From Paenibacillus terrigena DSM 21567 (GTDB taxonomy: Bacteria; Bacillota; Bacilli; Paenibacillales; Paenibacillaceae): a stretch of DNA of 64,000 bases. The notes beneath the pieces were generated by a model that saw only the letters and a list, made by a program, of their open reading frames with translations, was not told the origin of the DNA and did no database searches. The translations under genes and the position numbers were made by a program. The stretch lies in assembly GCF_000374845.1 (NCBI RefSeq), contig NZ_KB895412.1:381056-445055 (forward strand), in the 5' to 3' direction. This document shows, piece by piece, positions 10,844 to 27,149 of the stretch (position 1 is its first letter; each line of letters starts with the position of its first letter).

Positions 10844-12130
10844 TTAGGCGGAGTGTCCTTGGCTCGAGGTGTGTGCTAGTTCCTTCATTTGTTCAGGGTA
10901 ACCATACGCGCCGTGTTCACTAAGATCGAGACCGATCGTCTCTTCCTCTTCCGTCACGCGAATGCCGATGGTTACTTTCATCAAGTAGAGGACCAGATAA
11001 GATACGACGAACGTAAATGCTGCACATACGATGACGCCGAGCGCTTGAACCCCTAATTGCTCGAATCCGCCGCCATAGAACAATCCGGCTTTACCAACGC
11101 CGACCTTGGCAGCCAGTTCAGGTGTAGCGAAGAAACCATTAGCGAGTGTGCCCCATACGCCGGCCATGCCGTGCGCTGACATCGCGTAGATCGGATCATC
11201 CATCCGAAGACGCTCGAACAGACGCATGCTAAGGAAGACGACAATCCCTGCGATCAAACCGATTACAATAGCGGCCCAAGATTCGACGAACGCGCAGGAA
11301 GCGGTTATTGCGACGAGACCAGCGAGTGCGCCGTTCAGCATAACGGAGATATCTGCTTTTCCCGTAACCATCCAGGAGATTAAGAGTGCAGCTACTGCAC
11401 CTGCTGCAGCACCGAGCTGTGTGTTGATGGCGATGAATCCGAAGAAGCTTCCATCGCCTGCTGCAATCGTACTGCCTGCATTGAATCCGAACCAGCCTAC
11501 CCAGAGGAGCATGACGCCAAGCGTTGTGAACACTTGATTGTGCCCCATAATATTGTTCGGTTTGCCGTTCTTGTTGTATTTGCCAAGACGCGGCCCGAGC
11601 AGCATGGTCGCAGCCATCGCCGCGACAGCGCCGGTAAGATGCACGACTGTGGAGCCGGCGAAGTCTTGATCCCCATGCTTCGCAAGCCATCCGCCGCCCC
11701 AGATCCAATGCGCAATCACCGGATAGATGATGGCTGAGAAGACAATCGCGAAGATCAGATAAGCGGATAGCTTGGCGCGTTCTGCGAAGCCGCCGAATGC
11801 AACGGACATCGAGATAGTGGCAAAAGCAAGCTGGAACATAAAGTTCACGGTCGGAGCCACAATACTGCCCTCCGGTACGGACATACTGCTGAATCCGAAG
11901 TAATCTCCCCATCCGATGAAGGGATTGCCTTGAGAGCCGAAGATAAAGGCGTATCCGACGGCCCAGAATACCATAGAGACGATACCGATGGTGAAGACGG
12001 TCTTCCCGGCAATGTGACCTGCATTCTTCATTCGTGTGGAGCCGGCTTCGAGCATAATAAATCCGCTCTGCATGAATAACACTAAAATTGCACTCAACAT
12101 CGTCCATACTGCATTAATCCCTAATTCCAT
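10844..12130 (-). CDS. amtB: Ammonium transporter, Amt family
   Basis: This membrane channel takes up ammonium/ammonia. The 428-residue protein shows the Amt pattern of about eleven membrane segments. Family marks include GSTRMKNAGHIAGKT near the start, FAFATISMSVAFGGFAE-type pore residues, the twin-His region (VIAHWIWGGGWLAK; STVVHLTGAVAA) and GLDLSEHGAYGYPE in the cytoplasmic tail. The tail is slightly extended after that motif. No glnK/PII gene is adjacent, which is unusual since amtB and glnK often pair. Upstream there is a sigA-like promoter and two GlnR/TnrA-type boxes, so control by nitrogen supply is likely. AGGAGAGAGG upstream is the ribosome site. Confidence 0.95.
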   Translation of the reverse strand: MELGINAVWTMLSAILVLFMQSGFIMLEAGSTRMKNAGHIAGKTVFTIGIVSMVFWAVGYAFIFGSQGNPFIGWGDYFGFSSMSVPEGSIVAPTVNFMFQLAFATISMSVAFGGFAERAKLSAYLIFAIVFSAIIYPVIAHWIWGGGWLAKHGDQDFAGSTVVHLTGAVAAMAATMLLGPRLGKYNKNGKPNNIMGHNQVFTTLGVMLLWVGWFGFNAGSTIAAGDGSFFGFIAINTQLGAAAGAVAALLISWMVTGKADISVMLNGALAGLVAITASCAFVESWAAIVIGLIAGIVVFLSMRLFERLRMDDPIYAMSAHGMAGVWGTLANGFFATPELAAKVGVGKAGLFYGGGFEQLGVQALGVIVCAAFTFVVSYLVLYLMKVTIGIRVTEEEETIGLDLSEHGAYGYPEQMKELAHTSSQGHSA

Positions 12131-12220
12131 GTCACATTACCTCTCTCCTATAATAATGTAGTCAACCCACGTTGTTCCCAAAGACGGACAATCACTTCGT
12201 ATAAATGATATTATGTTCGT

Positions 12221-12260
12221 ATCTTATTGAATATGAAACAAAATGTCAATATAACTAACA
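12221..12260 (-). promoter_or_regulatory. amtB promoter with overlapping GlnR/TnrA box
   Basis: On the minus strand TTGACA (12249-12244) and TAAGAT (12226-12221) are 17 bases apart, giving a sigA-type promoter 90 bases before the ATG. A perfect TGTNAN7TNACA box (TGTCA, 7 bases, TAACA; 12244-12260) covers the -35. A box at this place would be expected to repress when occupied. Confidence 0.7.
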
Positions 12261-12368
12261 TCATAATATAAAGTATTATCTCATTAGTGCAAATCGAACC
12301 TAATTTTAATGTGTTATAGTCCGATAAATGTGAAAATACGGGTTATCTCAACGTTATTAATGAATACA

Positions 12369-12385
12369 TGTTATGTTTTATTACA
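12369..12385. promoter_or_regulatory. Distal GlnR/TnrA-type box upstream of amtB
   Basis: TGTTA, 7 bases, TTACA is a second perfect match to the TGTNAN7TNACA consensus, 125 bp upstream of the first. Two boxes at this spacing suggest loop-type or dual activation/repression control by GlnR or TnrA. Confidence 0.7.
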
Positions 12386-12414
12386 TAAAAAGGTGAATGG
12401 AGATCAATATCTAT

Positions 12415-12443
12415 AGAAAAACCGCCATCCATAGGATGGCGGC
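12415..12443 (-). terminator. Terminator of the DUF4023-like gene
   Basis: A 9-bp perfect stem (CCGCCATCC / GGATGGCGG, 12422-12442) with a 3-base loop is followed on the minus strand by TTTTTC. It ends transcription 28 bases after the small gene. Confidence 0.85.
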
Positions 12444-12470
12444 CTAGATCGTATATGGCATGACGCAATG

Positions 12471-12602
12471 TTATTTGTTGGTGCTGTGCTGTTTGCCGGG
12501 CAGTTTCTTCTCTTGGCTGCCTTGGCCATTATGCTGTTTGTTCTTGCGGTCCTTCTCTTGCGTATCATGCACTTTCTCTACAAAATCACGGGTACTGTCC
12601 AC
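12471..12602 (-). CDS. 43-residue charged peptide, DUF4023-like
   Basis: This is a small gene read directly from the minus strand: GTG start, 43 codons, TAA stop. It begins MDSTRDFVEKVHDTQEKD and ends with KKLPGKQHSTNK, so it is very polar, rich in Lys, Gln and Asp, with no membrane segment. A textbook ribosome site (AAGGAGG, 7 bases before GTG) and an immediate terminator make it a convincing monocistronic gene. The sequence resembles the DUF4023 family of short proteins found in Bacillus and Paenibacillus, whose function is unknown. I recall this family from memory and have not searched. The overlapping plus-strand reading frame has no such signals. Confidence 0.8.
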   Translation of the reverse strand: MDSTRDFVEKVHDTQEKDRKNKQHNGQGSQEKKLPGKQHSTNK

Positions 12603-12713
12603 AGAAATTCCTCCTTGTTCAATAGTTTGCCTTGTTAATGTAACCATTATTGGAGAAAATCATCGGGAGATCGGGTAAGCTATAGTAGATACATAATTAA
12701 AGGATGTGTTCGA

Positions 12714-13145
12714 ATGGGAAGTTGGTTAGTTTATGCCCTTGGTTCGGCTGTGATGGCTGCGCTCGTATCCATCTTCGGGAAGATCGGATTGAAAGGGGTC
12801 GATTCGAATACTGCGACGACGATTCGTGCAGTCATTATGATGTTGTTCCTCTTAGGCGTGCTTCTGTTCCAAGGAAAGATCTCGCAGATCGGCGACGTTC
12901 TGGCGAATAAGAAGGCCATGCTCTTCATTGTGCTAAGTGGTGTGGCAGGTGCGCTCTCATGGATGTTCTACTTCATTGCGATTCAAAAAGGGGATGTCTC
13001 GAAGGTAGCGCCAATCGACAAGCTCAGTGTGGTGCTTGCCGTTGCGTTTGCCTTGTTATTTCTAGGGGAGAAGTTATCTCTATGGGGCGGTGTTGGCATA
13101 GGTCTCATTGCTATCGGTGTATTAATCACAGCCTTTGCGCCATGA
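12714..13145 (+). CDS. Half-size EamA-type transporter
   Basis: This 143-residue membrane protein has four to five hydrophobic segments and matches a single EamA domain of the drug/metabolite transporter superfamily. The closing half has the typical SVVLAVAFALLFLGEKLSLWGG pattern, of which LFLGEK is the most diagnostic. Most family members carry two EamA repeats, so this one probably works as a dimer. AAAGGATG, about 8 bases before the ATG, is the ribosome site. It stands alone between the DUF4023-like gene and a MITE-like element. The substrate cannot be inferred. Confidence 0.85.
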   Translation: MGSWLVYALGSAVMAALVSIFGKIGLKGVDSNTATTIRAVIMMLFLLGVLLFQGKISQIGDVLANKKAMLFIVLSGVAGALSWMFYFIAIQKGDVSKVAPIDKLSVVLAVAFALLFLGEKLSLWGGVGIGLIAIGVLITAFAP

Positions 13146-13165
13146 GGTCATTTTGCGTTTTTTTA

Positions 13166-13435
13166 ACTTGAAGGGGTTGTTCAAAAAGTCATCATTTGAT
13201 AACGAAGTCATTCAAGAAGCATAATCGACATCGAATCTTGCGTCCACCTTCGAAGTCCGGTACTCATTTAGGTTTCGCCTAAACTCCGTTCCTCTGAAAG
13301 TTTTTCGAAGAAAAACTCGCTACGTAAGCATTATCCGAGGGTTCTCTCAACCTAAGCTTACGCTTACGATGTAAGTTTTCTTTGAAAACTTTAAGGTGCT
13401 GAAATGCCGACTTTTTGAACACGTACTTGAAGGGG
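13166..13435. mobile_element. MITE-like element with terminal inverted and flanking direct repeats
   Basis: A non-coding block of about 245 bp is bounded by inverted repeats TGTTCAAAAAGTC (13178-13190) and GACTTTTTGAACA (13409-13421). The arms continue imperfectly as ATCATTT / GGCATTT. Exactly the same 11 bases, ACTTGAAGGGG, flank it on both sides (13166-13176 and 13425-13435), as a target-site duplication would. Inside are two short hairpins (near 13290-13320 and 13370-13395). There is no transposase, so mobilisation would need one in trans. It separates the EamA gene from the nitric oxide synthase gene. Confidence 0.75.
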
Positions 13436-13499
13436 ATTTCTTTATAATAAGTCAAGAAGTTTCATATATTCGGACAATGGGATAGGGGATTTAAACAAA

Positions 13500-14579
13500 A
13501 TGAGTGGTCTTGTGAATCATGAAGAAGCAATGCAGTTCATACAAACCTGTTATTACGAATGGGGGAAATCTGAAGAGGAAGCGAAGGCACGCTGGGCCAA
13601 TATTGAAGCAGAGATCGCCCGGCAAGGGACATATGAACATACCGATCAAGAATTAATCTATGGAGCCAAATTAGCATGGCGGAACAGCAATCGCTGTATC
13701 GGGCGCCTGTTCTGGGATACGTTGACGGTGCTGGATGCCCGGCATGTAACCACGGAGGAAGCGGTCGCAGATGCGTTGATTCAGCATTTGCTGTTCGCGA
13801 CGAATGAAGGGAAAATCAGGCCGACGATCACGGTGTTTAGACCTGCGGCGGAATCGAGGGAAGAGATCCGTATTCTGAATCATCAGTTGATTCGCTATGC
13901 GGGATATACCACCGATGAGGGGATTGTCGGCGACCCGCATTCGGTTCCCTTCACGGCCTTGTGTGAAAGTCTAGGATGGCGGGGCCAAGGTGGAGCCTTC
14001 GATATCCTGCCCCTCGTTGTGAAGATTGGGTCGCGGGAGCCCAAGTGGTTCGAGCTGCCGGAGTCAGCTGTGCTGGAAGTGCCCATCACACATCCGGAGT
14101 GGCCTGCATTCTCAGACTTAGGACTGCGATGGTACGCCGTTCCGGCGGTGTCGGACATGCTGCTCGACATTGGCGGGATATCCTATCCAGCGGCGCCGTT
14201 CAATGGCTTCTATATGGGAACGGAGATTGGGGCGCGTAATTTCGCGGATACAGAACGGTACAATATGCTGCCGAAGGTCGCTGAGATTATGGGGCTCGAC
14301 ACGAGCAGTGAATCAACGTTATGGCGGGACAAGGCGCTCGTGGAGCTTAATGTTGCGGTGCTTCACTCTTTTCGCGAGCGAGGGGTGTCGATTGTCGATC
14401 ATCATACAGCTGCGCAGCAATTTATGCGATTCGAAGCGAATGAAGCGAAGGCGGAACGCCCAGTGACAGGGAATTGGACGTGGCTCATCCCGCCGGTATC
14501 GCCAGCGACGACGCATATTTTCCACAAACCGTATCGCAATACGATTGTGAAGCCGAATTTCTTCTATCATCGGAAGTAG
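13500..14579 (+). CDS. nos: Bacterial nitric oxide synthase oxygenase
   Basis: This enzyme oxidises L-arginine to citrulline and nitric oxide through N-hydroxyarginine, with heme and a tetrahydrofolate- or biopterin-type cofactor. The 359-residue length is that of the oxygenase domain alone, as in Bacillus, so electrons must come from an unlinked reductase. The heme-ligating Cys66 sits in [11 protein letters not shown]. The arginine-site region ([20 protein letters not shown]) and the pterin/dimer region ([20 protein letters not shown]) are conserved. AGGGGAT lies about 11 bases before ATG. The gene appears to lead an operon: the next gene starts 26 bases later with no terminator. A MITE-like element lies just upstream and may affect its promoter. 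Confidence 0.95.
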
Positions 14580-14605
14580 CTACAACAAGAGCAAGGGGTT
14601 TAGCA

Positions 14606-15553
14606 ATGACATTAGGACGATTCTTACAGCTTGTGGAAATCAAGACGAAAGTGGCCAGCATGATTCCTTTTCTGATGGGGACGTTCTATGCGTTATATCG
14701 TTTTCATGCGTTCAATGGGATTCATTTCATGCTGATGCTTGTTTCTCTGCTTAGCTTTGATATGGCAACGACGGTTATTAATAACTATTATGATTATAAA
14801 AAAGCAATCAAGACGGAAGGGTACGGCTATGAGACGCATAATCCGATCGTAAAATACGGAATGCGGGAGCGAACTGTTGTCGGAATCATCGCGATACTGC
14901 TCATCTTGGCGGTAGGTGCGGGGATTCTGCTCGTTGCGGAGACGGGTTGGCTTATTTTCTTCATAGGCGGATTATCCTTCTGTGTGGGGATTCTCTATTC
15001 CTTCGGCCCGATTCCGATCTCACGTATGCCTCTTGGGGAGCTGTTCTCGGGTTTGTTCATGGGGTTCGTCATCCTCTTCTTATCTACTTATATCCATGTT
15101 CCTGGCAGTGAACTCGTAGAGCTTGCATTTGATCACGGCATCGCACATCTGAATATTCAGATTCTGGAGGTGCTCCTTCTGTTCGGAGTGTCAATCCCGG
15201 CGGTACTCGCGATTGCGAACATTATGCTGGCGAACAATATATGCGACATGGAAGATGATGTTGAGAATCGAAGGTATACGTTACCGGTTTATATCGGGAA
15301 AAGAAATGCATTACGATTGTTCCGATGGATTTATTACTCAGCTTATTTGGATATGTTTGTGTTGTTTTATCTCGGCGTGCATCCGATCCTCTTGCTGTTA
15401 TTGTTAGGTACATTGATACCGGTGAATCGCCATGTGAACCAGTTCGAGAAGCTTCAGACGAAGAAAGACACGTTCGTGCTCGCGGTGAAGAACTTCGTGA
15501 TCATGAATGCAGCGAGGATTGTCGTGTATGGCATTGCGATATGGATGGCGTAG
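14606..15553 (+). CDS. UbiA-family prenyltransferase (MenA-like)
   Basis: This integral membrane enzyme transfers a polyprenyl chain to an aromatic acceptor. The 315-residue protein has about eight membrane segments. The first Asp-rich site is NNYYDYKKAIKT near residue 55, close to the MenA-type NDYFDYKKG motif. The second is NNICDMEDDVENRRYTLP near residue 210, with its DxxDD-like acidic cluster. By family it could make demethylmenaquinone from 1,4-dihydroxy-2-naphthoate, but a different acceptor is possible since no other men genes are here. The ATG at 14606 has AAGGGG 7 bases upstream; earlier in-frame starts overlap the NOS gene and lack such a site. It is probably co-transcribed with nos and the following two-component genes. 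Confidence 0.88.
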   Translation: MTLGRFLQLVEIKTKVASMIPFLMGTFYALYRFHAFNGIHFMLMLVSLLSFDMATTVINNYYDYKKAIKTEGYGYETHNPIVKYGMRERTVVGIIAILLILAVGAGILLVAETGWLIFFIGGLSFCVGILYSFGPIPISRMPLGELFSGLFMGFVILFLSTYIHVPGSELVELAFDHGIAHLNIQILEVLLLFGVSIPAVLAIANIMLANNICDMEDDVENRRYTLPVYIGKRNALRLFRWIYYSAYLDMFVLFYLGVHPILLLLLLGTLIPVNRHVNQFEKLQTKKDTFVLAVKNFVIMNAARIVVYGIAIWMA

Positions 15554-15587
15554 CTATAAAAAAGCACGCTAGATGAGGAGGGGGATT

Positions 15588-16274
15588 ATGGGGGATGTGG
15601 GCAAGTCGCCTGTTATTCTCATTGTGGATGACGAACAGCTGATTCGCGAGTTGGTGGCGGATTATCTAAGTGATGAAGGTTATTCGGTGCTGCAGGCGAA
15701 GAATGGCCGCGATGCCCTAAATATATTGCGTGAACAAGCCGTGGGTTTGGTCGTGCTGGATGTGATGATGCCGGGGATGAATGGGTTCGAGGTGTGTGAA
15801 GAGCTGCGGACGTTCTCTAGGGCGATCGTCATTATGCTAACGGCCAAATCGGAGGATGAGGACAAGATATCGGGGTATGAATGCGGTGTCGATGATTATG
15901 TGACGAAGCCGTTCAGTCCGAAGGTGTTGTCTGCCAAAATTAATGTGCTGCTGCAGCGGTTCAGAGCGGCAGACTCGGCGCTAGGGGCGGGGAAAGATGA
16001 TTTTTTCGTGCTGGATGAGGCGGCGATGGAGCTGCGAATTGGCGGTGAGGTCGTAGCGCTGTCGAGTAAAGAGTTCGAGATCCTCGTCTATCTGGCAAAG
16101 CATCCGAATCAAGTGTTGACGCGGGATCGTCTGCTTGATGTGATATGGGGGTTTGATTATTACGGTGATGCAAGGGCGGTCGATACGAGTATCAAACGAC
16201 TGCGGCGCAAGCTTGGCGTGGAATCGGAGCGGATCGTCACCGTGAGGGGAAGCGGGTATAAATATCAAACATGA
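15588..16274 (+). CDS. OmpR/PhoB-family response regulator
   Basis: This DNA-binding response regulator has 228 residues. The receiver domain (about 6-120) has acidic residues in VDDEQLIR, a phospho-acceptor Asp in VVLDVMMPGMNG and the conserved Lys in YVTKPFSPK. A winged-helix domain (about 130-226) carries LSSKEFEILVYLAKHPNQVL and the recognition-helix pattern VDTSIKRLRRKLG. GAGGAGGGG is placed correctly for the ATG at 15588; the in-frame ATG at 15573 lies before that site. Its kinase gene overlaps it by four bases (ATGA). Only 34 bases separate it from the prenyltransferase gene, so it likely belongs to the nos operon. Confidence 0.93.
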   Translation: MGDVGKSPVILIVDDEQLIRELVADYLSDEGYSVLQAKNGRDALNILREQAVGLVVLDVMMPGMNGFEVCEELRTFSRAIVIMLTAKSEDEDKISGYECGVDDYVTKPFSPKVLSAKINVLLQRFRAADSALGAGKDDFFVLDEAAMELRIGGEVVALSSKEFEILVYLAKHPNQVLTRDRLLDVIWGFDYYGDARAVDTSIKRLRRKLGVESERIVTVRGSGYKYQT

Positions 16275-18019
16275 AAAAATGGAACTCGGGTCGATTAACG
16301 ACAAAAGTATATTGGACGACGGCTATCGGATTCCTTGGGTTCGTCACGTTGTTCATGGTTCTTCAGCTTGTGTTCTTCCAACCGTATTCTTTGAAAGTGC
16401 GCAGTTCGGAGCTTGAGAGTGATTTTCGAGGCATGTATGAAGAGCTTCAAGACCAGCCGCTGAATGAGCAATGGATGAATAAGCTAGCTGATTTTGATGT
16501 CGCACATTACTCGCTTACAGGGGTTGTTCATAAGCAGGGGAAGCTTGTTGATGTATATTTGGGAACGCGAGAATTAAAAGCATCTCCGCTAACAAAAGCG
16601 CAGATCGGCGAGCCAATGGAGGTTCAACTCATTATGGCGGATCCTTGGCAGAAGGTAACTCCTGCCGTGCCTGTGACCCCTACTGAGCCCATTGATACGG
16701 AGAATCCACAAAAGGCTGTGCCTATGCGCACGGTTGCTGCTGTTTCTTGGTACAGTCAGGACGCGATGCGTCTCAATGACTTGCTGCAGGAGAAGCTTGC
16801 AGAGATGCTGCTGCGTCCGATGGATCAAGGGATTACTTCGCAGTTGTTCAATCAAGGTGTAGGTGTGGATTCGAATAAAGAGCGGGTATGGGCTGCGATG
16901 GCCCCGTTGCCTCCGGAGAAAGGGCAAGAACGTTACTTGGTTACGGTGTCCACGTTAGAGCCGGTGTCGGATGCAACGGCGTTGCTCGGCGGGTTCTATA
17001 GATATTTCTATATTGCAGCGGTCATTATGATGATGGGTTTCGCATTCTTGTTCAGCCGGATGATCTCGAATCCGCTCGTGAAGCTGAACCATGCGGCGAA
17101 GCGTCTTGCGAAATTGGATTTCTCCGTACGTACGGATATGAAGCGTGAGGACGAGATTGGCGAACTTGCACAGACCTTCGATTATCTCGCTACAGAATTG
17201 CACGACACAATGGGGGAGCTCCAGGAAGCGAATGACCAACTACAGCTGGATATTGAGAAAGAGAAGCAGCTTGAACGGATGCGCAAACGGTTCGTCGCGA
17301 ATGTCTCGCATGAGCTTAAGACACCGATTAGTCTGATACAGGGTTACGCGGAAGCACTGCGTGATAATGTAGGTCAGGGGGCGAAGCGTGATAAATATGC
17401 TACCGTCATTATTCACGAGTCGGAACGGATGTCGAGGCTTGTGAATGACCTGCTTGATCTCTCACAGCTCGAGAGTGGCAAATTCCGTCTGCAGTGGTCA
17501 GCTATACCGCTTCGGGAGCATATTCGGTTCGTGGTAGGGACCTTGGAGCAGATCGCGAATGATCGAATGATTCAACTGGAATGGTTGTGTTCGGAAGTTG
17601 AAGTGCTTGTCCGCTCAGATGCGCAGCGGCTGCAGCAAATTCTAACCAATGTGTTAACGAATGCCATCCGTTATACGGGTGCTGGAGATCGAATTCAGAT
17701 TACGGTACGCCCTGTATCCGGCCCTGCTGAGGGGTGTGAGTTGCCTGGATCTCTCGATGGGGTCTCGATAGTGTCGTGGGTTCAGGTCTCTATCTTTAAT
17801 TCGGGAATCCCGATTGCAGAGGAACATCTGCCGTATATATGGGATGCCTTCTATCGACCAGATGAATCCGGCATTCGTGGCGACACCGGGAATGGGATTG
17901 GATTATCAATTGTGAAGCATCTGCTCGAAATGCATGGCAGTATGTATTCGATTGGCAATGTAGAAGGGGGCGTCGAAGTCACGTTCATGCTGCCCGTCAT
18001 GCCGCGATCGGAAGCATAG
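16271..18019 (+). CDS. Membrane sensor histidine kinase (HAMP, HisKA, HATPase)
   Basis: This is the partner kinase of the overlapping OmpR-type regulator, 582 residues. A first membrane segment lies near 15-38. An extracytoplasmic sensing region of roughly 200 residues includes a Pro/Thr-rich loop near residue 135. A second membrane segment lies near 237-257, then HAMP (258-312) and a coiled dimerisation helix. The HisKA site is FVANVSHELKTP with H347, and the catalytic domain has NVLTNAIRYT and GNGIGLSIVKHLLEMHGS. The sensing region resembles nothing I recognise. Whether it responds to nitric oxide, redox state or the prenyl product is only suggested by its neighbours. Confidence 0.92.
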   Translation: MKKWNSGRLTTKVYWTTAIGFLGFVTLFMVLQLVFFQPYSLKVRSSELESDFRGMYEELQDQPLNEQWMNKLADFDVAHYSLTGVVHKQGKLVDVYLGTRELKASPLTKAQIGEPMEVQLIMADPWQKVTPAVPVTPTEPIDTENPQKAVPMRTVAAVSWYSQDAMRLNDLLQEKLAEMLLRPMDQGITSQLFNQGVGVDSNKERVWAAMAPLPPEKGQERYLVTVSTLEPVSDATALLGGFYRYFYIAAVIMMMGFAFLFSRMISNPLVKLNHAAKRLAKLDFSVRTDMKREDEIGELAQTFDYLATELHDTMGELQEANDQLQLDIEKEKQLERMRKRFVANVSHELKTPISLIQGYAEALRDNVGQGAKRDKYATVIIHESERMSRLVNDLLDLSQLESGKFRLQWSAIPLREHIRFVVGTLEQIANDRMIQLEWLCSEVEVLVRSDAQRLQQILTNVLTNAIRYTGAGDRIQITVRPVSGPAEGCELPGSLDGVSIVSWVQVSIFNSGIPIAEEHLPYIWDAFYRPDESGIRGDTGNGIGLSIVKHLLEMHGSMYSIGNVEGGVEVTFMLPVMPRSEA

Positions 18020-18109
18020 AGACGAGAGAGTCCCTCATAGGATGTTATAGAGTGCTTCGGTGTGAGCGGCTTGGCTGCACGCGCTGCAGCGGTCCTAGGA
18101 GGGAATCAG

Positions 18110-19057
18110 ATGAATCAAGCAGAACGTCGGTTGGCCTTGATCGAGGTGTTGCAGCAGAGCGGTATGCAGCGCGCGAAAGACTTGGCCGCCACATTTAGGA
18201 CGAGCGCGAGAACGATCTATCGGGACGTCGATGCGCTAATTCATGCAGGCGTACCGATTTACGGGGCGCCGGGACGAGGGTATGCGCTTGCGAATCAAGA
18301 AACGCTTCCGCCTGTGAGTATGACGGCTGAAGAAGCGTTGACGCTGTTGCTCGGCATCGATTGGATAGCAGGACAATTGGGGCGCGATTACCATGCTGCT
18401 GCTGAACAAGTCAGAAGTAAGGTGGAGGGCGTACTTCCAGGTGCGGTGAAGCGCAAGGCCGATCGCCAGCGTGCGGGGTTGTTGCGGGCTTCCATTCACC
18501 CACTGCATCAGGAGGAGACGCTTGGAACAATGGCGCTGCTAAGGCAAGCGATTGTGACGGAGACGACGGTAAAGTTTCGTTATGAGCGCCGGACACCCTA
18601 CCCGGACGGCAGCTTGGAGACGGTTCGATCGATCGACCCATATGGCTTGGTCTTTGCAGCAGGCGCATGGAGTGTGGTTGGCTATTGTCACCTGCGACAA
18701 GGGATTCGCCAATTTCATATTGATCGCATCTATGATTTGCAGCTTGAACCAAGAATATTTACTCGACCTCTTGATGTGGAGTATCAACGTCCGGCTGTGA
18801 AAGGCCGTTCTATTGCTGTTGAGGTACGCTTCGCTGCCGATATGGCCCATGCGATTGCAGAGAGACTCAGCTCAGATGTGACGCGAATGAAGAGCACGCC
18901 TGAAGGATTGCTTGTCACACTTCATGTCGGGAAAATCGAAGAAGCCTGCGCATGGATCTTAAGCTGGGGAATCCATGCAGAGGTGATTGAGCCGGATGAC
19001 GTGAAGGTGATGTTAGGCGAGGTGGCGGGTGTGCTCTCGCGACGCTATGCCCCGTGA
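18110..19057 (+). CDS. HTH/WYL-domain transcriptional regulator (YafY-like)
   Basis: This predicted DNA-binding regulator has 315 residues. An N-terminal DeoR/HTH_11-type helix-turn-helix (about 1-60; AKDLAATFRTSARTIYRDVDALIHAG) is followed by a WYL ligand-sensing domain (about 140-230; IDPYGLVFAAGAWSVVGYCHLRQG, FHIDRI) and a WCX C-terminal extension. AGGAGGG six bases before the ATG at 18110 fixes the start; the upstream in-frame GTG at 18062 has no such site. It follows the two-component genes by 90 bases and could be the last gene of that run. Targets are unknown. WYL regulators often respond to nucleotide or DNA-damage signals. Confidence 0.9.
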   Translation: MNQAERRLALIEVLQQSGMQRAKDLAATFRTSARTIYRDVDALIHAGVPIYGAPGRGYALANQETLPPVSMTAEEALTLLLGIDWIAGQLGRDYHAAAEQVRSKVEGVLPGAVKRKADRQRAGLLRASIHPLHQEETLGTMALLRQAIVTETTVKFRYERRTPYPDGSLETVRSIDPYGLVFAAGAWSVVGYCHLRQGIRQFHIDRIYDLQLEPRIFTRPLDVEYQRPAVKGRSIAVEVRFAADMAHAIAERLSSDVTRMKSTPEGLLVTLHVGKIEEACAWILSWGIHAEVIEPDDVKVMLGEVAGVLSRRYAP

Positions 19058-19093
19058 GTCCCCTATGGATTGATCGCTAGTGAAATGTCAGCC

Positions 19094-19195
19094 CGAAATA
19101 ATTGCCAAAAAGCAGTTAAATGGCCCGAGCAGGCGCGAAGAGATCGAAATAGCTGCTAAAAGGCAGTTGATTGGCCCCAATAGGCGCGAATTAGC
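19094..19195. repeat. Two tandem copies of a 51-bp imperfect repeat
   Basis: Copy 1 (19094-19144) and copy 2 (19145-19195) share CGAAATA, AAAA-GCAGTT, TGGCCC and AGGCGCGAA blocks in the same order, with about a dozen differences. The region is non-coding, between the WYL regulator and the DinB gene. Each unit can fold weakly (TGCC/GGCA-type pairs). Confidence 0.75.
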
Positions 19196-19265
19196 AAATT
19201 TGTCCGAGTTCTAAATGTCGTGCAGGGATTAAAGTTTGCGCCACGAATATTTTAAGATGACCCCG

Positions 19266-19295
19266 AGAACACTGACAACCATCTGTCAGTGTTCT
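19266..19295. promoter_or_regulatory. Perfect 12-bp inverted repeat upstream of the DinB gene
   Basis: AGAACACTGACA (19266-19277) and TGTCAGTGTTCT (19284-19295) form a perfect dyad with a 6-base centre, 60 bases before the DinB gene. The following bases (TTGGTTTA) are a poor U-tract, so an operator is as likely as a terminator of the WYL gene. Confidence 0.5.
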
Positions 19296-19354
19296 TGGTT
19301 TATAGTAGAGATAAGAAGAAGTTCATTGAAGAAAATTATGGGAGGTAATGAAGC

Positions 19355-19855
19355 ATGTATCAATCGTTACAAAGTTTTATGGAGGAGTATCGACTCGAAT
19401 CAGCTTCCACACAGAAGTTACTCGATGCCTTAACGGATGCGTCTTTGAAGCAGGAAGTAGCTCCGGGGTATCGGTCATTAGGCCAACTGGCGTGGCACCT
19501 CGTCCATAATGATGAGGGGATGCTGCTCTCTATGGGTCTTAAGTTTGAAGCGCCTGCTGCGAACAGCGAGCTGCCAATATCGGCTTCTGCCATCGCAGAT
19601 GCATATCGGAGCGTGTCAACTGGATTGCTTCATGCATTGGAATCCCAATGGACCGATGCCAATTTGCAGGAGAAGAACAATATGTACGGTCAAATCTGGC
19701 CAAATGGACTGACATTGAACATTTACTTGAAGCATGAAATTCATCACCGGGGTCAGTTGACGATCCTAATGCGTCAAGCAGGTCTACAAGTGCCTGGCGT
19801 ATACGGTCCATCCAAAGAAGAATGGGCGAGTATGGGTGTTGAAGCTCCAGTATAA
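19355..19855 (+). CDS. DinB-family protein
   Basis: This 166-residue cytoplasmic protein of the DinB/YfiT-like four-helix-bundle metalloenzyme superfamily has probable metal-binding histidines in GQLAWHLVHNDEG (about residue 50) and LKHEIHHRGQLTILMRQAG (about 128-133). Family members include DNA-damage-inducible proteins and bacillithiol or mycothiol-dependent transferases; which role applies here is unknown. GGGAGG precedes the ATG. It is followed by a terminator and preceded by a perfect 12-bp dyad, so it looks like a single regulated unit. The QAGLQVPGVYGPSKEEW ending is typical of the family. Confidence 0.88.
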   Translation: MYQSLQSFMEEYRLESASTQKLLDALTDASLKQEVAPGYRSLGQLAWHLVHNDEGMLLSMGLKFEAPAANSELPISASAIADAYRSVSTGLLHALESQWTDANLQEKNNMYGQIWPNGLTLNIYLKHEIHHRGQLTILMRQAGLQVPGVYGPSKEEWASMGVEAPV

Positions 19856-22659: not shown

Positions 22660-22784
22660 GTGCACAATTTCTGTGAATCATGGGGTTGCCACATAGGTGA
22701 CACATACGGGTGATAGGATAGCTCTTGTACCAACGGAGTAATTCAAAATCACACTTCAATTCAAGGCGTATCGGAGGAGAAGTT

Positions 22785-23648
22785 ATGCGTTATACACGTC
22801 GAGCACGTCAAGAGATTTATATCGCGTTGTTCTTTCTAGTGCCGAGTTTACTGGGCTTTGCAATTTTTTATTTGATCCCTTTCGTGGAGAGTATCGGAAC
22901 GTCCTTTCAATCGTCATCGGGCGGATTCTCGCTGGAACAGTATGGCGCGGTGCTCGGGAGCAGTTCTTTCCGCAAGGCAGCGGGGAATACGATCTGGTTC
23001 ACGGCCACCGCTGTTCCGCTCATCGTCGCATTATCCTTGCTCATTGCGATGTGGCTGAATCAGAAGGTGTACCTACGTAATGCCTTGCGAACCACTTATG
23101 TCCTTCCGCTCGTCGTTCCTGTCGCTTCGATCGTGCTCTTGTGGCAGATTACATTCGATTGGAATGGCGCACTGAATTCCGTATTGTCGTACTTCGGTGT
23201 TGAACGCATCGATTGGATGAAGTCGAATTGGTCCGGGACGGTCGTGATTCTGATGTATATCTGGAAGAACCTTGGCTATAACGTCATTTTGTTCCTTGCG
23301 GGGCTTCAGAATATTCCCACTTCGTATTATGAGACGGCGGATTTGGAGGGTGCAGGGAAGGTGAAGCAGTTCTTCGGGATCACCTTGGTGTATCTAATTC
23401 CTACAACATTCCTTGTGATCTTGATGTCCATTCTGAATTCCTTCAAGGTTTTCCGGGAGACCTATCTGCTCGCAGGCAATTATCCGCATGAGCGGATCTA
23501 TTTTCTGCAGCATTACATGAATAACATGTTCGTCTCCCTCGATATGGAGAAGTTATCCGCAGCGGCGGTGATTATGGCGATTGGGATTCTCTGCATCGTC
23601 GGCATTCTGTTCCAGGTTGAACGCAGATTCCGTTCCTTCATGGAATAA
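22785..23648 (+). CDS. Sugar-type ABC transporter permease (MalF/UgpA family)
   Basis: This is the first membrane subunit of a carbohydrate-type importer, 287 residues with six predicted membrane segments. The EAA loop is near residue 182 (ETADLEGAGKVKQFFGITLV). The N-terminus is short and positively charged (MRYTRRARQEIY), as in UgpA-like subunits. GGAGGAG lies 5 bases before the ATG at 22785; the longer frame upstream has no ribosome site. The second permease follows by 22 bases. The operon is unusual because an HlyD-like adaptor gene sits between the permeases and the binding-protein gene. No ATPase gene is present. Confidence 0.9.
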   Translation: MRYTRRARQEIYIALFFLVPSLLGFAIFYLIPFVESIGTSFQSSSGGFSLEQYGAVLGSSSFRKAAGNTIWFTATAVPLIVALSLLIAMWLNQKVYLRNALRTTYVLPLVVPVASIVLLWQITFDWNGALNSVLSYFGVERIDWMKSNWSGTVVILMYIWKNLGYNVILFLAGLQNIPTSYYETADLEGAGKVKQFFGITLVYLIPTTFLVILMSILNSFKVFRETYLLAGNYPHERIYFLQHYMNNMFVSLDMEKLSAAAVIMAIGILCIVGILFQVERRFRSFME

Positions 23649-23670
23649 GAGAGGGGAGGTAGAAGACAAC

Positions 23671-24537
23671 ATGCGAAATCTTAGATTATCCAGTGCATTA
23701 CCCATTTTGCGAACGTTGTTCCTAGCATCACTTGCTCTGATTCTCGTGACGCCGATCTTGCTGACTGTGATTAATTCCTTCATGACAGAACATGAGATTA
23801 CAGCCAATTATGCATCATTAGGTCAGACATCGATGAATACGTGGGTCACGCTGAAGCTTATTCCGGATTGGGTATCCTTTGACCAATATTTTACATTGTT
23901 ATTAAAAACGCCGGAATTTCTACGGATGTTCTGGAATTCAGTCGGGCTGGTTGTTCCGATCATTGTGGGGCAGTTAATCTGTGCTTCTCTGGCAGCCTTT
24001 GCCTTTGCGAAGCTAAATTTTCCAGGCAGAGATTCACTATTCTTTATCTATTTAATTACTTTGATGCTGCCGTTTCAGGTAACGCTGGTACCGAACTATA
24101 TGATGGTGGATCGTCTCGGTCTGCTCAATCACATGGGATCAATCATTCTCCCGGGTATATTCGCGCCGTTCGGCGTGTTCTTGCTCAGGCAGTTCATGCT
24201 GAATATACCTTCTGGTTATATGGAAGCGGCGAAAATGGATGGTGCGAGCACATTACGAATCTTCCTGAAGATCATCCTTCCGATGGTTCGACCTGGGATT
24301 GCGGCACTCGTCGTCCTCTTGTTCGCGGATTACTGGAACATGGTCGAGCAGCCGTTGATCTTCTTGCAGGATGCAGCACTCCAACCCTTGTCCTTGTTCC
24401 TAACAACAATTCAGAAGGGGGCCTTCGGGGTTAGCTTCGCGGCTTCTACGCTGTACATGATTCCGATGGTGCTGCTGTTCTTGTACGCAGAGCCGCATTT
24501 TGTGGAAGGAATCGAGATGTCAGGGATTAAAGGTTAA
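23671..24537 (+). CDS. Sugar-type ABC transporter permease (MalG/UgpE family)
   Basis: This second membrane subunit has 288 residues and about six membrane segments, with the EAA loop near residue 185 (EAAKMDGASTLRIFLKIILP). The first periplasm-side loop between membrane segments 1 and 2 is longer than average (about residues 35-85). GGGGAGGT 10 bases before ATG 23671 sets the start; the upstream frame extension overlaps the previous gene. The product probably pairs with the preceding permease. It is followed after 30 bases by the adaptor gene, in what looks like one transcript. Confidence 0.9.
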   Translation: MRNLRLSSALPILRTLFLASLALILVTPILLTVINSFMTEHEITANYASLGQTSMNTWVTLKLIPDWVSFDQYFTLLLKTPEFLRMFWNSVGLVVPIIVGQLICASLAAFAFAKLNFPGRDSLFFIYLITLMLPFQVTLVPNYMMVDRLGLLNHMGSIILPGIFAPFGVFLLRQFMLNIPSGYMEAAKMDGASTLRIFLKIILPMVRPGIAALVVLLFADYWNMVEQPLIFLQDAALQPLSLFLTTIQKGAFGVSFAASTLYMIPMVLLFLYAEPHFVEGIEMSGIKG

Positions 24538-24567
24538 ATCGATTTTGAAAAGTAGGAGGAATAACGT

Positions 24568-25749
24568 ATGGGGGCACGGAGGAATAAGGTGATCCTTACC
24601 ATTGCAGTCATCTTCTTAAGTGTTATGGCCATTTTGGCGTTTCTGAGCAATACGATATCAGCAGCTATGCTGCCTAAGGTGACGACGGAGCACGCATCGG
24701 TACAGGAACTCGAGGTGTCATTGTCTGGTAAAGGGACACTACAGCCCAAAGCACGGGAGGATGTGATGTCCGATACCGGGTTCGAGATTACAGGTGTCAA
24801 GGTAGAAGAAGGCGATAAAGTCAAGCGTGGTCAAGTGCTGTTCACCTTGGATGCGACGGATTTGAAGGATCAAATTGCGGATGAGCGTACGCGTCTTCAG
24901 CAGGCGGGACTCGGAACAAAGGCGCTGCAGCAGGCTTTTATTGATGCACAGCTCACAGGAGATCCCGTTGCGATCGACAAGGCGAAGCGTGATCTAGAGA
25001 GTGATCGTCTGAATACGACGTTGTCACAGCGGAAGATCGCCCGGATGGAGAAGGAGCTTGGGGAGAAGAGTCAAGTCACAGCGCCTTTTGACGGTATTAT
25101 CAAGAAAGTGAACGCCCGAAAAGGTGACAAAGCAGCAGCGAGCAAGGCACTGGCTAGCGTCATGAATGCATCCGCAGGCTATCAATTCTCGTTTACCGTT
25201 CCGGAAGCGGAGGCGTCCATCTTAGCTGTAGATGAGAAGATCTCTGTGAGAGTGAAGCAATCGGGCGGCAAGGAGATCTCGGTCCAAGGGAAAGTAGCGG
25301 ATATTAGCGACGCGGCTTCGGGTTCAGGTGATGGAGGCAATTCTGGCGATGACACGACGATGGGGGCTCCAAAGGCGGATCGTGGAGGATCCAGTGAAGG
25401 AAGCCAGGAGGATAGCGGACCGAAGATGAGAGTTACCATGGAGGTTAATCATCCGAAGCTGCACGGCGGGGAGTCCGCAAGCGTGAGTAAATCGAAACCT
25501 CTTGGCGAGAAAGGAATGGTCATTTCGAAAAAACGTCTAAAAACGGATTCCGATGGTTCGTATTTGTTGATTGTCCGTACGAAGAAAAGTCCGCTGGGCA
25601 ACAGTTATGTGGCTGAGAAGGCCAGGGTGCGGCTTAGTGCAGAGATGAAAGATAAGGTCATTATATCCCAAGGGTTAAATTCGGACGATGACATCATCGT
25701 CGAGACTAGTGAACCATTGCAAGATGGCAATGAAGTTCGGGTGAAATGA
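24568..25749 (+). CDS. HlyD/RND-type membrane fusion (adaptor) protein
   Basis: This 393-residue protein has one N-terminal membrane segment (about 8-30). A split biotinyl-lipoyl-like domain follows (GFEITGVKVEEGDKVKRGQVL near 75-95, and VTAPFDGIIKKVNARKGDKA near 172-190) around a short alpha-hairpin coiled coil (about 100-165). A beta-barrel comes next, with a Gly/Ser/Asp-rich disordered insert (about 255-290), and a C-terminal membrane-proximal domain (VIISQGLNSDDDIIVETSEPL). By family it belongs with exporters (MacA- or YknX-like). Here it lies inside an importer operon, between permease and solute-binding protein genes. GTAGGAGGAAT upstream is the ribosome site. Its role in this setting is unknown. 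Confidence 0.87.
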   Translation: MGARRNKVILTIAVIFLSVMAILAFLSNTISAAMLPKVTTEHASVQELEVSLSGKGTLQPKAREDVMSDTGFEITGVKVEEGDKVKRGQVLFTLDATDLKDQIADERTRLQQAGLGTKALQQAFIDAQLTGDPVAIDKAKRDLESDRLNTTLSQRKIARMEKELGEKSQVTAPFDGIIKKVNARKGDKAAASKALASVMNASAGYQFSFTVPEAEASILAVDEKISVRVKQSGGKEISVQGKVADISDAASGSGDGGNSGDDTTMGAPKADRGGSSEGSQEDSGPKMRVTMEVNHPKLHGGESASVSKSKPLGEKGMVISKKRLKTDSDGSYLLIVRTKKSPLGNSYVAEKARVRLSAEMKDKVIISQGLNSDDDIIVETSEPLQDGNEVRVK

Positions 25750-25787
25750 AAGACTTGCAGCGTTAAGGGAAAAAGGGAGGAGAACTT

Positions 25788-27149
25788 ATGATGAAGATAA
25801 AGCAATGGGGATTCATTGGATTGGCAAGTGTGATGATGTTGGCAGGATGCAGCAGCGGCAAGGAAGTAGGACCCAAATTGACAGAGGATGGTAAAAAGAT
25901 CGTTGTTATAGGGACTCCCGGATCAACCCGGTTCTTGGAGGAGGCCGAGAAGAAGTTCGAAACTAAGCACCCGGATATCGATATTCAGATCAAGAAATAT
26001 GGACCGGAAGAGAAGAAAAATGACGGTGGTGGCATGGCGACAGGACAAGTGATGACACGCGATGAATATGACCAATTCATTTCACGTCTGAATACGGAGG
26101 TGTTATCCGGCAAAGGTCCCGATATCATGGATACATCAGGTCTATCGCTCGGTGTCTATGCGAACAAGGGAGCGGTCATCGATCTTCATGAGATGATGAA
26201 GAAGGATAACGCGTTCAAGACATCAGACTATTTCGAAGGCTTGTGGAAGGCAACCGAGATTAACGGCGGATTGTATGCATTGCCGACACGTTATTTCGTG
26301 AACACGATGATGGTCAATACCAAACGGCTTGAGCAAGCGAATGTGAAGCTGGATGACGCCAAGTGGACATGGAATGATTTCTTCGATATTGCTGATAAGA
26401 TCAAGAAGTCTTCTAGTGATGAAGTGTATGCGTTAGGAACAAATGGTCCGAAGGGGGAGCTGCTCTATTCCATCGTGGAGGCGGATTACGAGCGTTACGT
26501 ACAGCACGATAAGAAGACGGCGAACTTTGATTCCGATGAATTTAGACAAATGATGCAGCATGTCAAAGGCCTATACGATAAGGGGTTCATCACGAATTAT
26601 GATGGAGGTATAGACAGTATGGACAAATTGATGTTCGTGCAGAATACCTATATTACACCCGATATGTTGGCGGCATTCTCGTACACGCCAGGCTGGAAGA
26701 GCGTTCTTCCTCCGACAGCAGCAGGGACATCTACGGGGCTACCATTCCAACCGATGGGTTCCTATTCGATCAATGCCAAATCGGGTATGAAGGATGAAGC
26801 ATGGCAGTTCTTGAAATTTATGGTCTCGCCTGAAATGCAGCAATCCCCAGAGCTTGGCGGAATCCCGATGCTCAAAGAACTTGTGAACACCAAATTCGAA
26901 GAGATTAAGAAGCAGGTCGCCGATGGTACATCGAAAATGGCTATTCAAATCAATGACCCGAAAGATTTCGCACGTCACGTGGATGAGATGAAATCTATGT
27001 TAGATAATACAGGCAAACCGTCGGCCATGGATCCGAAGATCAGTACAATTATTAGCGATGAGTTTAAAACCTTCATGGACGGTTCGAAGTCAGCGGACGA
27101 AGTTAGTAAATTGATTCAAAATCGTGTAACGACCTATTTGAACGAGTAG
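25788..27149 (+). CDS. Extracellular solute-binding lipoprotein, family 1
   Basis: This is the binding protein of the upstream permeases, 453 residues. It has a lipoprotein signal with lipobox LAGC (Cys21), then a type I periplasmic-binding fold (FLEEAEKKFETKHPDIDIQIKKYG opening; FQPMGSYSINAKSGMKDEAW closing). A Lys/Gly-rich stretch near residues 67-85 (EEKKNDGGGMATGQV) is longer than in typical maltose-type proteins. GGGAGGAG lies 7 bases before the ATG. It ends the operon and a terminator follows. The ligand is probably a sugar or sugar-like compound, on family grounds only. Confidence 0.9.
   Translation: MMKIKQWGFIGLASVMMLAGCSSGKEVGPKLTEDGKKIVVIGTPGSTRFLEEAEKKFETKHPDIDIQIKKYGPEEKKNDGGGMATGQVMTRDEYDQFISRLNTEVLSGKGPDIMDTSGLSLGVYANKGAVIDLHEMMKKDNAFKTSDYFEGLWKATEINGGLYALPTRYFVNTMMVNTKRLEQANVKLDDAKWTWNDFFDIADKIKKSSSDEVYALGTNGPKGELLYSIVEADYERYVQHDKKTANFDSDEFRQMMQHVKGLYDKGFITNYDGGIDSMDKLMFVQNTYITPDMLAAFSYTPGWKSVLPPTAAGTSTGLPFQPMGSYSINAKSGMKDEAWQFLKFMVSPEMQQSPELGGIPMLKELVNTKFEEIKKQVADGTSKMAIQINDPKDFARHVDEMKSMLDNTGKPSAMDPKISTIISDEFKTFMDGSKSADEVSKLIQNRVTTYLNE

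Follow-up and report, generated by a model that had tools for sequence, protein, structure and literature searches.

A nitric oxide synthase gene next to a DmkA-like prenyltransferase gene in a small group of Paenibacillus

The described physiology nearest to the locus considered here is that of Staphylococcus aureus, in which nitric oxide synthase (NOS) acts on respiration through nitrite (PMC5539425). On the prenyltransferase side, the closest described setting is the FLEET locus for flavin-based extracellular electron transfer (EET), in which, in Listeria, eight genes including dmkA lie together. We investigated a 64,000-nt window of the Paenibacillus terrigena DSM 21567 genome (6.36 Mb in 40 contigs; the window is positions 381056-445055 of contig C1), in which a nos gene is followed on the same strand by a gene of the UbiA prenyltransferase family (ubiA), a response regulator gene and a histidine kinase gene. 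A preliminary description, made from the sequence of the window, had proposed that this run encodes a nitric oxide/respiratory-quinone stress circuit. Comparison across the family Paenibacillaceae makes a different account probable, namely, that the run was assembled at the level of the genus and is no old circuit, with a standard NOS joined to the only DmkA-like prenyltransferase of the genome and the sensor pair standing apart. The pairing of nos with ubiA looks real but confined to one small Paenibacillus group.

Extent and tightness of the nos-ubiA pairing

The window's genus (g1) is represented by three genomes, and ubiA directly follows nos in all of them, at distances of 26 bases in the window, 4 in G026 and 2 in G008, as read from the sequences; a TATAAT element, recognized by eye only, lies 5' of nos in each of the three. 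The NOS proteins of the two other genomes are 76% and 89% identical to that of the window. NOS is present in 237 of the 295 genomes of the family, and in a set of 40 NOS loci (stretches of 15 kb from 15 genera, two of them shorter or at contig ends) nos was recovered by tblastn from every locus and a ubiA relative from two, those of G008 and G026, where it stands directly behind nos; no ubiA relative was found by tblastn in the other 38. Approached from the other gene, 20 ubiA loci from other genera contained no nos by tblastn. A scan of genome contigs with a UbiA alignment yielded 197 relatives, the best 80 of which were kept (flanks of at most 8 kb; 17 of the 80 loci shorter than 14 kb; own-genome records may be left out), and nos was found in the flanks of a single one, the P. 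selenitireducens locus, which belongs to the same genus. In that locus, a gene for a 656-aa EF-G-like GTPase (L031:8103-10073) lies directly 3' of nos-ubiA and is followed by FecCD transporter genes. Neighbouring genes outside the window were called with a simple open reading frame (ORF) caller, which missed nos in L033 and L057 and ubiA in L098; tblastn recovered 40/40 and 20/20, with every conclusion unaltered.

The same pattern emerges from gene distances and from gene content. Both coordinates were listed for 34 of the 66 genomes that carry the two genes: nos and ubiA lie within 2 kb of each other only in the three genus genomes, 44-58 kb apart in six, more than 1 Mb apart in five and on different contigs in 20. 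Family-wide, nos occurs in 66 of the 96 genomes with ubiA and in 171 of the 199 without it, a negative association (ubiA was scored as present at E < 1e-90, with a broken copy in G292 counted as present and a fragment in G080 as absent). A general NOS-prenyltransferase association was ruled out by the 38 NOS loci lacking a ubiA relative together with this gene-set comparison. The preliminary description was right that ubiA is an unusual neighbour for nos, and the linkage does reach beyond the strain, with nos-ubiA in all three genus genomes and the two-component pair after ubiA in two (the window and G026), but a general NOS circuit of Paenibacillaceae finds no support in the 38 NOS loci or in the single occurrence of nos around 80 ubiA genes. 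In G008, which has the P. selenitireducens locus described above, ubiA is followed not by the two-component pair but by those genes for an EF-G-like GTPase and then a FecCD transporter.

An EamA relative lies near ubiA without nos in two of the 20 ubiA loci from other genera (L090 and L093, both of genus g6), just as an EamA-type gene lies upstream of nos in the window, from which insertion of nos between these two genes seems probable. In the NOS tree (39 rows), g1 forms a single supported clade whose own branch has a weak placement, which speaks neither for nor against horizontal arrival of nos, and g1 is not resolved against its relatives in the ubiA tree (31 rows). In the open-licence literature, none of the matches listed concerned a NOS-UbiA operon link in Paenibacillus or named P. 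selenitireducens in connection with NOS or EET, and the text of the P. nitricinens NOS paper makes no mention of an operon, UbiA, a prenyltransferase, a two-component system or a flank.

Within the window, all four ORFs are present with strong Pfam matches, bearing out the identities, strand and coordinates assigned to them earlier (Table 1). Taking the gene starts of the preliminary description, the gaps are 26, 34 and -4 bases; an in-frame ATG at 15573, if taken as the start of the regulator gene, reduces the second gap to 19. A consensus scan for terminator-like hairpins over 12100-19400 detected none at the three junctions, in agreement with the run as first described; it returned seven sites against a shuffle mean of 6.7, six of the seven within coding sequence, and the longest hairpin (15 pairs) is at 19263-19298, 3' of the WYL regulator gene. 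Spacing by itself is weak evidence, because tight same-strand runs are common: 15 of the 45 adjacent gene pairs in the window are same-strand neighbours with gaps below 40, and runs of at least four genes with such spacing occur in nine of the 40 NOS loci as annotated by the simple ORF caller. For nos-ubiA the case is stronger, since both other genus genomes have a junction just as tight.

The NOS is the only protein of the genome that matches PF02898. The matching NO_synthase domain, for which the curated cut-off is 22.7 bits, spans the whole protein, and the protein aligns over its full length with PDB entries 2flq, 1m7v and other bacterial NOS entries. Two segments, of 10 and 11 residues, align with 2flq with one N/H difference in the first; we take them to be the haem-cysteine and arginine-site motifs.

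Table 1. Positions in the window of the four-gene run and of neighbouring features
Feature	Position	Strand	Description	Supporting match
nos	13500..14579	+	oxygenase-only bacterial nitric oxide synthase, 359 aa	PF02898, 572 bits
ubiA	14606..15553	+	DmkA-like, 1,4-dihydroxy-2-naphthoate polyprenyltransferase family, 315 aa	NF004752, 380 bits (cut-off 289)
response regulator gene	15588..16274	+	OmpR/PhoB-type	PF00072 (Response_reg), PF00486 (Trans_reg_C)
histidine kinase gene	16271..18019	+		PF00672 (HAMP), PF00512 (HisKA), PF02518 (HATPase_c)
EamA-type transporter gene	12714..13145	+	syntenic marker upstream of nos	PF00892
WYL regulator gene	start 18062 or 18107, end 19057	+	after the kinase gene	
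four ORFs	22725..27149	+	transporter-like cluster, homologous to a cluster near the regulator/kinase pair elsewhere	

The prenyltransferase, extracellular electron transfer and the quinone acceptor

The ubiA product is the only protein of the genome over the NF004752 cut-off, which is passed in one of 14 named control genomes; with the equivalog NF009926 it scores 308 bits, just under the cut-off of 316, and with the Pfam UbiA model 86 bits. A sequence search of the PDB gave an unrelated phosphorylase as the top row (E 0.0037) and UBIAD1 at E 0.22. Five further UbiA proteins are encoded in the genome: two haem O synthases, two MqnP-like proteins that exceed the cut-off of the general UbiA-like model TIGR01475 and fall below those of the MqnP models, and one divergent MenA-like protein. 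The latter is paired with a DUF6081 protein (L113:5680-7424, contig C2 of the same genome), and in other Paenibacillus loci (L101, L103, L107) the DmkA-like gene has relatives of this pair nearby. Judged from family scores and genomic context, ubiA is probably best read as DmkA-like, not as the respiratory menaquinone prenyltransferase, and its product falls by sequence in the family of 1,4-dihydroxy-2-naphthoate (DHNA) polyprenyltransferases. We call it DmkA-like, and not DmkA, because the genome gave no MenB match.

In seven of the 80 named loci, UbiA relatives adjoin genes for an Ndh2-like protein and a polyprenyl synthase, in FLEET loci whose composition matches that described in PMC9888254 and PMC9973259, the second of which names PF07456 as the eetB family. 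The Fervidicella metallireducens locus (L178) holds nearly the whole FLEET set, with ApbE, EetA, EetB, Ndh2, polyprenyl synthase, FMN_bind and this UbiA within ~8 kb, and in Paenibacillus sp. YN15 (L192), EetB, EcfT, polyprenyl synthase, Ndh2 and an FMN_bind relative (by tblastn) are found near UbiA, again within ~8 kb. Among the 295 family genomes, 96 carry ubiA, 113 carry eetB and 95 carry both (Fisher p 2e-57, relatedness ignored). The P. terrigena FLEET set occupies ~37.6-58.7 kb of contig C19, a span of ~21 kb, with ApbE, NusG_II (EetA), PF07456 (EetB), two ABC ATPases and a CbiQ-type EcfT and, beyond some other genes, a polyprenyl synthase, an FMN_bind protein and an Ndh2-like protein that shares 65% identity with its YN15 counterpart; no NF004752 protein was found in this region. 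By domain, homologues of ndh2, dmkB, eetA, eetB, pplA, fmnA, fmnB and dmkA are all present in the genome (pplA being called from an FMN_bind match only, and dmkB from a polyprenyl synthase match), but, unlike in Listeria, the eight are not in one locus, with the dmkA-like gene on C1 and the others on C19.

Two observations concern FLEET regions more broadly. The second MqnP-like UbiA lies inside the FLEET region of C19 (L207:528-1397, loci L112/L207), beside genes for a class-III aminotransferase and a U32 peptidase-family protein, and together these could be another quinone-modifying set. In several g6 genomes (G121, G097, G129, G168 and others), the eetB domain is found in open frames of ~520-580 aa, possibly a fusion.

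Under the reading favoured here, nos and ubiA would most likely share one transcript and be translated from one message. The NOS would make nitric oxide (NO) from arginine with borrowed reductases, and UbiA would attach to a naphthoate-type acceptor a polyprenyl chain that may come from the prenyl diphosphate synthase of the C19 FLEET set. The product would be a demethylmenaquinone-like carrier operating between Ndh2 and flavin-bearing surface proteins, and NO could then have an effect on the electron transfer chain.

Several points weigh against this reading. Eighteen genomes carry eetB without this ubiA, physical linkage to FLEET genes is seen in just the seven loci mentioned above (with flanks of at most 8 kb), and the co-occurrence test takes no account of relatedness. 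The likeness to DmkA is drawn from family and context, the Listeria protein itself lying outside the comparison, and in L. plantarum dmkA was rated dispensable for EET, with iron reduction in the presence of DHNA falling only slightly when the gene was lost (PMC9888254). In a survey limited to MenB and MqnC, the MenB model TIGR01929 has no match at E 0.001 in the P. terrigena genome, so that synthesis of the naphthoate on which a true DmkA acts is not obvious. Finally, a junction that is tight in three species could reflect a shared function of nos and ubiA.

The menaquinone genes sharpen the question of the acceptor. MenB has no match at E 0.001 in any of the three genus genomes, and MqnC, a marker of the futalosine route, is present in that of the window; across the family, MqnC is matched in 293 of the 295 genomes, 289 of them over the cut-off. 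MenB exceeds its cut-off in two, neither of which carries this ubiA at the threshold given above, and the weaker matches to the MenB model in 98 other genomes are taken for other enoyl-CoA hydratases. The two genomes with MenB over the cut-off, G017 and G185, are also the only two of the 295 with no MqnC match, which is a clean swap of the menaquinone pathway. A row of menaquinone genes on contig C2 (HEPPP_synt_1, UbiE, MqnP-like UbiA, Flavoprotein and VitK2_biosynth) has its own UbiA. With no MenB detectable and the futalosine route present, the source of a naphthoate acceptor for the DmkA-like protein becomes the most interesting question that the genome raises.

L. plantarum offers a precedent, as an organism with dmkA that is missing the remaining pathway genes and obtains its DHNA from the surroundings (PMC10746273), although dmkA was not needed for EET there (PMC9888254); we found no open-licence literature joining FLEET with the futalosine route. 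A more ambitious proposal, which we consider improbable, is that NO synthesis is coupled through one transcript to the production of a dedicated EET quinone for which the cell's own DHNA is not the precursor, with NO shifting electrons away from oxidases and towards extracellular acceptors. As part of it, and with as little confidence, the acceptor in Paenibacillaceae with the futalosine pathway would be scavenged DHNA or 1,4-dihydroxy-6-naphthoate from the Mqn route, creating a second quinone pool outside normal respiration. MenB exceeds its cut-off in none of the 96 ubiA genomes, whereas eetB is present in 95, a contradiction that can be tested. Once the acceptor is known, the quinone that serves EET in these Gram-positive bacteria could be named. 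A UbiA gene otherwise read as a menaquinone enzyme gains a probable function, and the nos link, if functional, adds NO to the EET pathway in one clade.

The two-component pair

The regulator and kinase look like a separate sensory unit. The Pfam domains of the kinase are limited to HAMP, HisKA and HATPase, with no haem or iron-sulphur domain found, and both a structural model and an alignment place an extracytoplasmic domain between two membrane helices. Relatives of this ectodomain occur in 10 of 255 genomes, namely, that of the window, G026, seven of genus g6 and, as a weak and partial match, G033; G008 has no match. For the seven g6 loci, tblastn confirmed the ectodomain in six, the seventh (L233) being a shortened copy, and detected a regulator relative next to the kinase in four. 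Neither nos nor ubiA is present in the 18-kb stretches around any of the seven g6 kinase copies, and by their listed coordinates nos, ubiA and the kinase gene in these genomes are on different contigs or far apart. Because the parts have separate locations in another genus, the run is best seen as three units joined in one genus.

The pair also keeps other company. In two of the seven g6 genomes (G005 and G145), it has beside it a divergently oriented cluster homologous to the four ORFs at 22725-27149 of the window; a similar cluster follows the pair in G026, with two copies of the last gene, and none was found in a 16-kb stretch of G008. Our reading of this cluster as an ABC sugar transporter is a name taken from its gene make-up, not from a Pfam scan.

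Among the best 25 of 102 NCBIfam families, no curated cut-off was reached by the regulator or the kinase, the best two-component scores being PhoB 203 of 296, PnpS 214 of 400 and WalK 201 of 725. A sequence search of the PDB with the kinase ectodomain gave one unrelated row at E 0.1. The model of the sensor domain is of low confidence (mean pLDDT 61.8) and found no match in Foldseek at E 0.001; in pairwise comparison, it gave Z 8.1 with WalK 4ywz (4.6 Å, 131 residues), Z 8.5 with the dCache domain of 7k5n (3.2 Å, 106 residues) and Z 8.6 with 4zr7 (3.4 Å, 117 residues). With low confidence, then, the ectodomain may resemble PAS/Cache sensor domains such as that of WalK.

Alternative readings and comparison with known systems

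The circuit originally proposed would have NO and a UbiA-derived quinone act on respiration while the kinase senses the redox or nitrosative state that results and regulates the operon. In its favour are the close spacing of the run in two species and the physiology of S. aureus, where nitrite arising from NOS stimulates respiration (PMC5539425) and nos is activated by SrrAB, whose presumed signal is the menaquinone pool (PMC10580903). Against this stand the absence of an ectodomain match in G008, with other genes behind ubiA there, the seven g6 kinase copies away from nos and ubiA, the lack of a positive nos-ubiA association across the family, and a kinase whose domains include none described for haem or iron-sulphur binding. 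With gene order as the whole of the evidence, we regard such a circuit as unlikely. Of the preliminary description, the gene identities, the tight run and the unusual neighbour are supported, as is linkage beyond the strain; a general circuit is not supported, nor are two further points: the respiratory quinone is at odds with MqnC, with a menaquinone row that has its own UbiA and with the grouping of this ubiA with EET genes, and the sensor domain described as unfamiliar may, going by the low-confidence model, resemble PAS/Cache domains, while its kinase also occurs in a second genus, at a distance from both nos and ubiA.

That UbiA is simply MenA, making ordinary respiratory menaquinone and standing behind nos by chance, would fit the NCBIfam name of NF004752, DHNA polyprenyltransferase. 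We consider this very doubtful, given a genome with MqnC and no MenB match, a menaquinone row on C2 already supplied with an MqnP-like UbiA, and the gene's absence, at the E < 1e-90 threshold, from 199 of the 295 family genomes. Far more plausible, although we would not bet on it, is that nos landed between the EamA gene and ubiA in an ancestor of the genus and is functionally unrelated to its neighbour. This would agree with the reading of UbiA as DmkA-like, denying only that the pairing matters, and it is consistent with the two g6 loci where EamA lies near ubiA without nos and with the separation of nos and ubiA in other genera; the junction, however, still measures 2-26 bases in three species, even though identity between their NOS proteins falls as low as 76%. 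Genus-level assembly around a DmkA-like prenyltransferase remains our preferred account.

Several described systems can be set beside this locus. Oxygenase-only bacterial NOS, as in Bacillus subtilis and its relatives, share with the window NOS a full-length NO_synthase domain and no reductase domain; the difference is confined to the neighbouring genes, and the protein looks standard. In S. aureus, NOS, quinone state and a two-component system are joined in physiology, by regulation (PMC10580903), whereas here the link consists only of gene order, and the kinase could be assigned to none of the named equivalogs among the 25 best-scoring families. Compared with the Listeria-type FLEET locus, the window UbiA shares the DHNA-prenyltransferase family with DmkA, and the ndh2-like, polyprenyl synthase, eetA, eetB, fmnB, ecfT and FMN_bind genes are also present in the genome, but the gene lies behind nos on a different contig from the FLEET set, in a genome with MqnC and no MenB match. 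A further parallel is the EET set of Paeni-Cedars (PMC10373932), where the passages considered mention nos in the legend of a cell model and do not state that dmkA adjoins it, and where seven FLEET genes form one operon and dmkA lies elsewhere, the same split as in P. terrigena.

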